Below are positions 27,061 through 31,006 of a DNA stretch of 64,000 nucleotides, one piece after another. The position numbers were made by a program, and so were the translations under genes. The notes below the pieces were generated by a model. That model saw nothing but the letters and a program-made list of their open reading frames with translations. It was not told the DNA's origin and did no database searches. The first letter of the stretch is position 1, and every line of letters starts with the position of its first letter. Source of the stretch: Blumeriella jaapii (Eukaryota; Ascomycota; Leotiomycetes; Helotiales; Drepanopezizaceae); the NCBI GenBank assembly GCA_009599575.1, contig VWND01000012.1:248001-312000 (forward strand), written 5' to 3'.

Positions 27061-28386
27061 TAAATAAAAAACAAATGCATTTATTGCTAATATAATTATC
27101 GTATTTGCAAATATTATAATTGTATAATTTAATCAGCGAATTATAAAAAAGCAAAATGCTTCTGTTTTAATCGCCAAACCAACTGATATAAAAAAAAACG
27201 TTAAAATCGAAAAGAAAAAAAATTTTGAAATTCGAAAAAAAGCCGATAAAACTATTAAAAAAACGCTTATAATAAAAAAAATTAACGACGATATAAAAAA
27301 TATCGATACCGACACTTCGATTTAAATTATTTAAAAAGTATCAGCTTTTAAACGCCTATTATTAATACGAAGCGAAAAATAAATCGACAAATATATTAAT
27401 TTCGAAGCCGTCGACGAAGCTATTAAAAAAATTATTAAACAAAAAATTAAATTAAAATTTAACGACTTATTTAATATAAAAAAAAGATTCGATAAAATTA
27501 TTAATAAACAAATCCCTGCATTAAAAAAAAACGAAAAAATTAAAATTATCCGAGGAAAAAATAATTTTAAATTAAAAAAAAACTAAAAAAAAATTTATAA
27601 TACCGCAGTTAATTTAGCCGATAAAAAGAAATCCTCGGAAAAAGTCAATCTTTTAGCTTTTGCTATAAAAACTCAAAAGTCAAAACGACGAAACTGCTTT
27701 TATACGGTTATAAAAGCATTAAAAATAAAAACAATATTCGAAAAAAATACGACCGCCTTTGTTTTATTCGATAATAAAACCGAAATCAATTATATAAATC
27801 AGAAAACGGCCGAAGCCAATAATATCCCGATTATCACCGACAAACGAATAATTTACACGACCGTTAATAGAAATATTATTAAGTTTAATAAAATTATGCG
27901 AAATATAAAAATCGACGTTAAAAGTATTATTATTTATAAAAACTTTTTAATAATAAAAAAATGCTTTTATTTTATTATTTTTAAAATACTTTAAATTTTA
28001 AAAAATTTCGTCAGTTTTAAATACACCGAAAACGGCCAGATGAAAGTCTTTTTCTGAAACTGGAACCGATTTTTTTAAAACCAAATTACCGTCGCCGGCG
28101 ATAAAGTTTTTCTAATCGACGTTTTATCGGAAAACGAATAGCCGGCTTTGGTTCTAAAACAAACGCTAAATTATAACAAAACCTGGAAAATATTTAATTA
28201 AAAGCATTTACGTCGCTAATCGAAATAGCACCGCGAATAAAATTAGCTAATATTAATATTTTTGGCTATTAATTCGGAAATAAAAATTTCGAAGATTTCG
28301 TTTTCGTATGAAACAAACCCGATTTACATATTTTATTTTTTTATATTAATATCAGCATTTTTTACAAACGCAAAGCTAATAAAATA
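27060..28386 (+). pseudogene. Family 1 copy D pol, part 1 (linker and protease)
   Basis: Includes the Lys/Glu-rich linker and the protease loop FVLFDNKTEINYIN near 27750-27790, in which the Gly after Asp-Asn is now Lys. The piece ends at a tac duplicated around the inverted-repeat element at 28385-28387 and 31004-31006. Confidence 0.75.
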
Positions 28387-28388
28387 CT

Positions 28389-28421
28389 TAGAGGCGCCTG
28401 TGGGTGGGATTACAACCGATT
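28389..28421 (+). repeat. Left terminal inverted repeat of the foldback-like element
   Basis: Begins TAGAGGCG and ends ACAACCGATT. It matches the reverse complement of 30968-31000 best over its inner 20 bases. Confidence 0.6.
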
Positions 28422-28619
28422 TAACACCGAGTCAAATCCGAGTTAACACTTGGCGTAAAATTAACTCCGAGTATAATCAAAGTTAATACGCGATTAAATG
28501 AAAATTAATCTTAGAATTATTAAAAATTAATAAATACAATAAATTATATAATAATTCAAAGCTTCGAAAAAAATATAAATCTTATACGAATTAGTTATTA
28601 TTTTTTATCAACGCTTTTA
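28422..28619. other. Unique AT-rich segment of the foldback-like element
   Basis: Contains two or three copies of a ttaacaccgag / aactccgag motif, then AT-rich sequence with no coding signal. Confidence 0.4.
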
Positions 28620-29590
28620 TTAATACCACCATTAATACTACTATTACCAACACTATTATCATCTCGTCGCTATCACTTCGTCGCCACCATTTCGCTGTCG
28701 CTATTATTAACACCATTATTAACACTACTATTATTATCATTACTAATACTACCACTTCGTCGCCGACATTTCGCTGCCACCACCTCGCTGCTATCATTTC
28801 GCTGCTATTATTTCGCTGCTATCATTTCGCTGTTATTATTTCGCTGCTATTATTTCGCTGCTATCATTTCGCTGCTATTACTTCGCTGCTACTATTATTA
28901 TTACTATTATTATTACTACTATTATTATTATTACTACTATTATTATCACTATTATCACTACCATTATTATTATTACTATTATTACTATTATCTCGCTGCC
29001 ACCACTTCGCTGTCACCATCTCGCTGCCATCATTTCGCTGCCACCACCTCGTCGCCACCACTATTATTACTATTACCATTACTACTATTATTACTATTAT
29101 TACTATTATTATCATTATTATTACTACCATTTCGCTGCCACCATTTCGCTGCCACCACTTCGCTGCTACCATTTTGCTGCCACCATCTCGCTGCCACCAT
29201 CTCGCTGCTATTATTTCGCTGCCATCACCTCGCTGCTATCACCATCACTATCATCACCACCATTACTACCATTACTATTATCATTACTACTATCATTACC
29301 ATTATTACCACCACTACCACCATTACTATCACTACCATCACCACCACCACTACTACTACTACCACCATTACCATCACTACTACTATTACCACCACTACCA
29401 CTACTACTACTATTACCACCATTACCACCACTACCACCATTACCACCATTACCATTATTACCACCACTATTACTATTACCATTATTATCACTACTACTAC
29501 TATTACTACCATTACCACCATTATCACTACTACCACTATTATCACCACCACCACCATTATCACTATTACCATTACTATTATTATTATTAT
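28620..29590 (+). repeat. Left arm: triplet and 14-bp minisatellite repeats (pyrimidine-rich strand)
   Basis: Irregular runs of att, acc and atc triplets are interspersed with blocks of the 14-bp unit (tcgctgccaccatt type). The long His/Tyr and Val/Met frames here are only translations of the repeats. The arm is the inverted counterpart of 29690-30440. Confidence 0.85.
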
Positions 29591-29626
29591 TTCGCTAATA
29601 CTATTTTGCTAGAAAAATAACGAAAA

Positions 29627-29666
29627 GCCGAACAACCGAACAGCCGAATAGCCGAACAGCCGAATA
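29627..29666 (+). repeat. Five tandem copies of an 8-bp unit (gccgaaca) in the spacer
   Basis: Successive octamers gccgaaca, accgaaca, gccgaata, gccgaaca, gccgaata sit in the loop between the two inverted arms. Confidence 0.8.
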
Positions 29667-29689
29667 AACTGGGTAATTACAATAGTAGC

Positions 29690-30440
29690 AGCGAAATGAT
29701 AGCAGCGAAATGGTGGCAGCGAAATGGTAGCAGCGAGGTGGTGGCAGCGAAATGGTGGCAGCGAGGTGGTGGTGGTAATAGTAATAATAGTAATGATAAT
29801 AATAGTAGTAATAATAATAATAATAATAGTAATAATGGTAATAATAATAGTAATGGTAGTGGTGATAATAATAATAATAGTGGCAGCGAGATGGTGGCAG
29901 CGAGATGGTGGCAGCGAAATGGTGGCAACGAAATCGTGGCAGCGAGATAGTGGTGGTAATAATAATAATAATGGTGGTGGTAGTAATAATAGTAATGGTG
30001 GTAATAATAGTAATGGTGGTAGTGGTAATAATGGTGGTAATAGTAATAATAATGGTAATGGTAGTAATGGTAGTAATAGTGGTGGCAGCGAAATGATAGC
30101 AGCGAAATAATAGCAGCGAAATAGTAGCAGCGAAGTGGTGGCAGCGAGGTGGTGGCAGCGAAATAATAGTGGTAATAGTGATAATAATAGTGGTAGTGAT
30201 AATAATAGTAGTAATGGTAATAGTGGTAGTAATGATAATAATAATAATGGTAATGGTAGTGGCAGCGAAGTGATAGCAGCGCGGTGGTGGCAGCGAGGTG
30301 GTGGTGGCAGCGAAATGGTGGCAGCGAAATAATAGCAGCGAAATAATGGCAGCGAGATGGTAGCAGCGAGATAATGGCAGCGAAATAGTGGCAGCGAGAT
30401 GGTGGCAGCGAAATAATAGCAGCGAAGTAGTGTTAGCGGA
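29690..30440 (+). repeat. Right arm: 14-bp minisatellite (tggcagcgaaatgg) and triplet repeats (purine-rich strand)
   Basis: Tandem 14-bp units alternate with runs of aat, ggt and agt triplets; one unit translates in successive frames as AAKWWQRN-like text. It is the reverse complement in type of 28620-29590, so a transcript could form a long imperfect hairpin. Confidence 0.85.
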
Positions 30441-30544
30441 AATATTATTTAGTATAATATTAAATAAACGTGGTTTAATATAAAATTTTTAATTTAAATT
30501 CGAAAAGTTTGGTATATATTAAATATCGATTTAATTTAATTGTA
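30441..30544. other. Unique AT-rich segment between right arm and palindrome array
   Basis: No repeat or coding signal visible; AT-rich like 28500-28600 on the other side. Confidence 0.4.
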
Positions 30545-30975
30545 TAAATTTGTTTCGGTATTAACACCGAATATAATCGGTATTAATATCGATTATATTC
30601 GGTGTTAATAAATATAATCGATATTAACACCGAGTATAATCGGTATTAACACCGATTATATTCGATATTACCGATTATATTCGGTGTTAAATCGTCACAC
30701 ATCGATGTAAAAGTAAACCGCGCCACTTCGGTATTAACACCGATTAGCAACCGATTATACTCGGTTTTAAAACCGATTATACACCGATTATAATCGGTTA
30801 TATAAAACCGATTATAATCGATTATAATCGAATTAAAACCGGTTATAATCGGTGTATAATCGATTATAATCGGTGTATAATCGGTTTTAAAAACCGATTA
30901 CAATCGGTGTATACCCGGTTTTAAAACCGATTATAATCGGTGTATACCCGGTTTTGCAACCGGGTATAATCGGTT
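30545..30975. repeat. Array of short palindromes (accgattataatcggt and variants)
   Basis: Roughly twenty related palindromic units, including ACCGATTATAATCGGT and the motif ttaacaccga, are packed in both orientations. A few related motifs occur near the left terminus, so the array is strongly asymmetric between the two ends. Confidence 0.8.
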
Positions 30976-31000
30976 GTGATCCGACCCTAGATAAGCCGTA
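30968..31000 (-). repeat. Right terminal inverted repeat of the foldback-like element
   Basis: Its reverse complement begins TACGGCTTATC and ends ACAACCGATT, pairing with 28389-28421. Confidence 0.6.
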
Positions 31001-31006
31001 CGGTAC

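Follow-up and report, generated by a model that had tools for sequence, protein, structure and literature searches.

A probable non-autonomous TA-target transposon family with a foldback microsatellite core and RIP-like mutation in Blumeriella jaapii

The window analysed here is a 64,000-nucleotide stretch of the Blumeriella jaapii genome (contig VWND01000012.1, positions 248,001 to 312,000). A discrete 2.6-kb insertion occupies window positions 28387-31003, from CTTAGAGGCGCCTGTGGG to CCTAGATAAGCCGTACGG, inside a mutated retrotransposon. It consists of two conserved ends and, between them, two repetitive arms that face each other around a loop:

28385..28386, no strand: left target-site duplication TA (50-copy alignment; single TA in four host-retrotransposon copies)
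28387..28620, + strand: conserved left end CTTAGRGGCGCC..., about 230 bp (50-copy alignment; 62 genome matches to its outer 33 bases)
28403..28419, + strand: subterminal inverted repeat, left copy GGTGGGATTACAACCGA (15 of 17 bases identical to the right copy on the opposite strand)
28621..29600, + strand: left arm, (AYY)n runs and 14-bp units whose commonest form is CACCACCTCGCTGC
29601..29689, + strand: loop with CCGAACAG-type 8-mers and CTGGGTAATTACAAT (8-mer block in 49/50 copies)
29690..30440, + strand: right arm, of the reverse-complement type of the left arm, (RRT)n and GCAGCGAGGTGGTG units (own-arm comparison, fold)
30441..31003, + strand: conserved right end with ACCGATTATAATCGGT-type palindromes (50-copy alignment; 74 matches to its 31-mer)
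30970..30986, - strand: subterminal inverted repeat, right copy GGTCGGATCACAACCGA (15/17 match to the left copy)
30996..31003, no strand: terminal 8-bp palindrome CCGTACGG, only at the right extremity
31004..31005, no strand: right target-site duplication TA (50-copy reading)

A sequence-only reading of the window had placed the element at 28388..31003 with a 3-bp duplication, 'tac'. The duplication exists, but it is 2 bp long, TA, and the boundaries become 28387-31003. The C of 'tac' is part of the element at the left junction and of the flank at the right one, and so is a chance addition to TA; in 10/50 copies the element begins with the same base that follows the right duplication. Fifty full-length copies of 1645-3535 bp were read, the remaining ends being lone or far apart and read in part. 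Their duplications are TA/TA in 46, AA/AA in two and TT/TT in one, which makes 49 equal 2-bp duplications, three of them non-TA; the single AA/TA pair departs from this rule. One outer nested copy, outside these 50, has CG at both sides. A Helitron was rejected on the strength of the 2-bp duplications, including the three equal non-TA ones.

The 50-copy alignment reveals conservation over about 230 bp on the left and, interrupted by indels, about 560 bp on the right. The extremities are asymmetric, with GGCGCC near the left end and the palindrome CCGTACGG at the right end alone. The short terminal inverted repeats described earlier exist in subterminal position only: the 15/17 inverted match joins 28403-28419 and 30970-30986, while the outer 16-17 bases of the two ends differ. 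The 17-base subterminal motif has 135 matches in the genome at ≤1 mismatch (positions listed for the first 100) versus 1 for the control.

The complementary arms facing each other around a short loop were correctly recognised from the first. Folding of the inner 921 bases of the window copy gave z = -17.3, and none of 20 shuffles was as stable. In the 47 copies measured, the left arm spans 620-1284 bp (median 921) and the right arm 139-1006 bp (median 535). This great variation between copies implies that slippage or unequal exchange acts too. Inverted microsatellites are difficult to assemble, and the repeat block might for that reason be an artefact; the chance of this is close to nil, and the idea was rejected, since the loop block recurs in 49 of 50 loci and arms could be excised on both its sides in all 49. 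Homogenisation of the two arms within a copy was also considered and set aside. The own arms give the best match in 13 of the 46 copies used (three of the 49 with arms were dropped for short arms), and the own-arm excess is small after merging C and T (mean 355.8 vs 338.3, the largest of 5000 permutations reaching 354.5). Own arms do match better than those of other copies, but a shared mutation load (correlation 0.54) may explain much of this.

The element belongs to a family. In the 47.4-Mb genome, the outer 33 bases of the left end have 62 matches at ≤3 mismatches and a 31-base piece of the right end has 74, with none for the reversed controls. A mutation-tolerant pattern raises the right ends to 78, of which 76 show no other mismatch. 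The search with the terminal 33 bp that had been proposed thus returned further copies with matching ends and a 2-bp duplication, and with 62 left and 78 right ends the suggestion that the element might be single-copy falls.

These copies appear to have spread as mobile units. Segmental duplication or ectopic recombination could in principle have multiplied them, and the high local density of copies and one sister pair on a single contig would fit such a process. It is nevertheless very improbable and was rejected, because no two of the 50 copies (1225 pairs) have both 30-bp flanks in common, in register; equal 2-bp duplications flank 49 copies, and empty sites are present. The highest both-sides flank identity, 53%, was found for two copies lying in microsatellite. 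When the flanks of the window copy were joined with one TA, they matched all 40 scored copies of the host retrotransposon (of 521 first-look candidates), which are spread over the genome at 88-90% identity; the alignments run from base 1-16 to base 795-800 of the 800-base query, and the four empty loci that were read have a single TA at the site. Another copy, L049, is inserted at the loop of another element, a place unoccupied in 39/50 copies, and by a simple flank test 5/50 copies lie inside the core of another copy or a degraded relative of it. The window copy and its closest sister, L031, share the core structure, with 1.4% gap columns, and differ in their flanks, which indicates that the core moves as part of the unit. 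The description of a foldback-like mobile element within a RIP-mutated retrotransposon is therefore supported by second copies, ends, duplications and empty sites in the same genome.

The mutational history of the element is less simple than it had seemed. The surroundings are indeed poor in CpA, as reported (outside the element the window has CpA rho 0.50 and CpG rho 3.22), but the element cannot be called un-mutated. Its conserved ends show flank-like depletion (CpA rho 0.56 and 0.44, CpG 2.5 and 3.5) and its core varies almost only by C:G to T:A change. The depleted ends suggest that the family probably spread from ancestors that already carried such changes, although the composition may instead reflect a natural CpG-rich origin. 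In the window at 1-28380 and 31011-64000, and in loci L077-L080, the C-to-T process strongly spares CpG and, less strongly, cytosines after G; TpA, with a rho of 0.86, is not raised there, so the usual TpA/ApT index shows little.

Sister copies record the process directly. The window copy and L031 are separated by 297 substitutions, 295 of which are C/T or A/G transitions, 290 of them at non-CpG cytosines. For L013 and L055 the count is 205 transitions among 206 substitutions, and for two further pairs 146/157 and 81/85; the L031 and L013/L055 pairs and three others were picked for closeness, the remaining pairs being rich in gaps. In the five pairs, cytosines without G before or after differ in 782/6205 comparisons, those with a G before and none after in 20/1447, and those in CpG in 29/2295, with comparisons counted in both directions and pairs that are not independent. 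The host retrotransposon gives 2105/4735, 799/3740 and 442/7703 for the same three classes (ten pairings of five copies, 50-column stretches at identity ≤72% dropped). The preference for context agrees between the two (Spearman rho 0.85 over 16 contexts), while the load at susceptible cytosines is lower in the element, and the post-G rate of the retrotransposon shows that cytosines after G are less strongly spared there. The element thus has the context-dependent excess of C:G to T:A change in repeated DNA that marks a RIP substrate; the spectrum itself is plain, and we infer that RIP is its agent.

The arms display the same process at the level of single repeat units. Top-strand AYY triplets read ACC 3453 times, ACT 2212, ATT 1912 and ATC 778. 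In 14-bp units between perfect CGCTGC neighbours, change is rare at A and G, and the C positions of CACCACCT read T in 10-34%. CGCTGC itself shows 19 changed positions in 314 unit comparisons, and persists because it is made only of spared contexts (GCN and NCG are hardly mutated). The runs of cca and ggt had been regarded as intact; the arms do keep their CpA (rho 1.07 and 1.09), but the (ACC)n and CACCACCTCGCTGC arrays are partly mutated.

Two other accounts of this pattern have to be weighed. According to the first, the element is an un-mutated foldback that arrived after RIP had stopped or escaped as a single copy. The CpA content of the arms against that outside (0.50), and a load below that of the host retrotransposon, would both be expected. 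Such a history is nonetheless hard to credit in a genome with 62 left and 78 right ends, where conserved ends are depleted like the flanks and sisters differ almost only by C:G to T:A changes at non-CpG sites. Arrival without later mutation was rejected on the differences between sisters. What survives of the claim of arrival after RIP is its timing: the element entered after its host retrotransposon and carries a lower load, making later arrival likely, but a process of the same preference hit the element too, and its mutation continued after arrival in the retrotransposon. According to the second account, the mixture of C and T in the arms is old microsatellite variation generated by replication slippage rather than by RIP-like mutation. 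The widely differing arm lengths (620-1284 and 139-1006 bp in 47 copies), and the many gaps in pairs beyond the two best matched, speak for some slippage; as the source of the mixture it is improbable, given that the changes in the low-gap pairs are 295/297 and 205/206 transitions, that CGCTGC stays nearly intact while repeating with the rest of its unit, and that the mutated contexts rank as in the host retrotransposon. RIP-like mutation of the arms remains the preferred reading.

This corrects a tempting inference, since CpA that survives in a microsatellite is no proof that RIP left it alone. The ACC arrays provide a readout of the C-to-T machinery of the host, replicated dozens of times in one genome and in part independently, and the three-base context rule is clear from them. 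C-to-T change at both CpA and CpT is described for Magnaporthe oryzae, Botrytis cinerea and Sclerotinia sclerotiorum, while Leptosphaeria maculans has a CpA-only signature, unlike the CpA and CpT pattern here (PMC4352252). In the element and its host retrotransposon, CpG and post-G cytosines are in addition strongly spared.

As to the enzyme, TA duplications are associated with Tc1/mariner-type transposases, and the duplication of the element points in this direction. The asymmetric ends counsel caution, because outer 16-17 bases that are not inverted repeats are unusual for the Tc1/mariner family. The genome has 5 DDE_1 and 24 DDE_3 hits. An autonomous partner, which the sequence-only reading had advised looking for, did not emerge from the seven of these 29 loci that were read (L069-L073, L081 and L082), none of which holds either end of the element at ≤8 mismatches. 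The terminal repeats of L069 and L070 (86-93 bp) differ in sequence from the ends of the element; L081 has an exact 23-bp repeat, and its ends do not match the hairpin-core family.

The DDE_1 elements at L069:350-2817 and L070:346-2820 lie on different contigs and have near-perfect 86-93-bp terminal inverted repeats of the same sequence. L081:407-1762 is a broken Tc1/mariner-like (DDE_3) element in the C73 region, with its own exact 23-bp terminal repeat.

Long distances between left and right ends, on C8, C12, C62, C65 and C91, were weighed as possible autonomous copies. The case on C8 (L066) proved to be a 6.2-kb LTR retrotransposon inside an element copy (L066:2176-8383), with GTAAT on both sides and LTRs 95% identical over 207 bases; this LTR family is dispersed. 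The middles of those on C62, C65 and C91 (L074-L076) contain AT-rich DNA together with repeats like those of the core, and gave neither a DDE_1 nor a DDE_3 hit.

The likeness to foldback elements had been proposed by architecture, and on this level it holds: tandem-repeat inverted arms surround a middle segment in 49/50 copies, with the fold of the window copy as given above. It does not extend to the inversion of the tips, since terminal inverted repeats do not reach the extremities, nor to a target duplication of 8-10 bp. The Drosophila foldbacks FB and Tetris share with the element a non-coding nature and long inverted tandem-repeat arms of variable length (PMC4079207). Tetris (PMC4079207) and the element are also alike in a heterochromatic setting and in that no autonomous partner was found, in the case of the element among the seven DDE loci read. 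In contrast, Tetris has 8-10 bp target duplications and carries its tandem repeats inside true terminal inverted repeats (PMC4079207), while the extreme ends of the element are asymmetric and its repeats are tri- and 14-nucleotide units. Lacking these two features of Drosophila foldbacks, the element is classed as a non-autonomous TA-target element whose microsatellite core is of foldback type.

Fungal Tc1/mariner-type MITEs have a TA duplication. They resemble the element in this respect (46/50 TA/TA, and empty TA sites), and also in the absence of visible coding capacity, high copy number and conserved ends. The element differs in being longer (1.65-3.5 kb) and clustered, in its hairpin microsatellite core, and in its asymmetric extremities, which do not form a matching terminal inverted repeat. 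The MITEs of Epichloe festucae reportedly escape RIP and often lie in genic regions (PMC6218096). No related element with the same features was found in those parts of the open-licence literature that were available.

The distribution of the family is peculiar. Ends at ≤3 mismatches occur on 20 contigs, in a single span per contig; the spans measure 2-216 kb, add up to 1.46 Mb and are delimited by the element ends themselves. The mutation-tolerant right-end pattern, meant for mutated relics elsewhere, added four right ends: one inside C12, one inside C41, one on C16 that carries the span there to position 13.6 kb, and one close to the beginning of C67, a further contig that brings the number to 21. 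Those on C16 and C67 are among the most changed. This search placed no right end at a second, distant position of any contig, and the 3.09-Mb contig C1 has 0 copies by left-end, right-end and mutation-tolerant searches. Contigs C9, C23, C42 and C71 hold a single copy and C67 a single end, and so are by themselves uninformative on clustering; nothing can be learned from the spans of C11, C41 and C51 either. Other transposons behave differently: the spans contain 2/40 copies of the host retrotransposon, 5/40 of another LTR (two of the five being both LTRs of the query element itself) and 3/24 DDE_3 hits, where the host-retrotransposon and LTR lists are best-scoring copies rather than complete sets. 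For the copies found, the three groups compared are dispersed, and the element is confined to one region per contig.

On balance, these regions are plausible candidate centromeres. They occur once per contig on 21 contigs, of which five carry just one copy or end, in an assembly whose chromosomes are not joined end to end; TTAGGG arrays are no commoner than the reversed control (3 vs 7) and so do not mark the chromosome ends. A rival with a substantial chance, if short of even, is that they represent some other once-per-contig feature, such as a type of AT-rich block or a place where assembly breaks, in which the element spread locally. Regions that reach a contig end (C8, C14, C17 and C62) and the sisters L027 and L031 on the same contig would agree with this, as would others that come near one, but on C3, C5, C7, C65 and C73 the region lies inside the contig, at 280-588 kb from its end, and the close pair L013 and L055 lies on different contigs. 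A comparable distribution is that of VdLTRE9 in Verticillium dahliae, with 204/215 copies at centromeres and an AT-rich, possibly RIP-altered consensus; it lies almost only in one AT-rich block per chromosome, as the element lies in one region per contig (PMC7482064). VdLTRE9 resembles an LTR retrotransposon and its sites were tied to CenH3 (PMC7482064), whereas the element is a small DNA element. If the regions are centromeres, a small DNA element marks them while other transposons are scattered, and this would provide a sequence handle on centromere position and on the way selfish DNA finds centromeric chromatin.

Taken together, the element probably represents a family of non-autonomous cut-and-paste, TA-target transposons with a foldback core, mutated in a RIP-like manner and found in one region per contig. 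A TA-duplicating transposase, presumably Tc1/mariner-like and not found among the loci read, would have bound the asymmetric ends and placed the complete unit at TA sites. The core would originally have been an inverted array of ACC trinucleotides and CACCACCTCGCTGC units. A RIP-like C-to-T process would then have hit the copies, mainly at cytosines without G before or after, turning ACC into mixtures of ACC, ACT, ATC and ATT and leaving CGCTGC nearly intact. Confinement to one region per contig would most likely have arisen through preferential insertion or survival in centromere-type chromatin. A bolder and rather doubtful extension is that of a DNA transposon that targets, or survives only in, centromeric chromatin and seeds hairpin trinucleotide arrays there, the C-to-T scars logging RIP-like hits copy by copy; its ends and its CGCTGC anchors have few susceptible contexts and would stay recognisable, so that a RIP-scarred family keeps moving.

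In the right flank of copy L053 lies a relative of the microsatellite core in degraded form, a hint of similar families that are older or have diverged.
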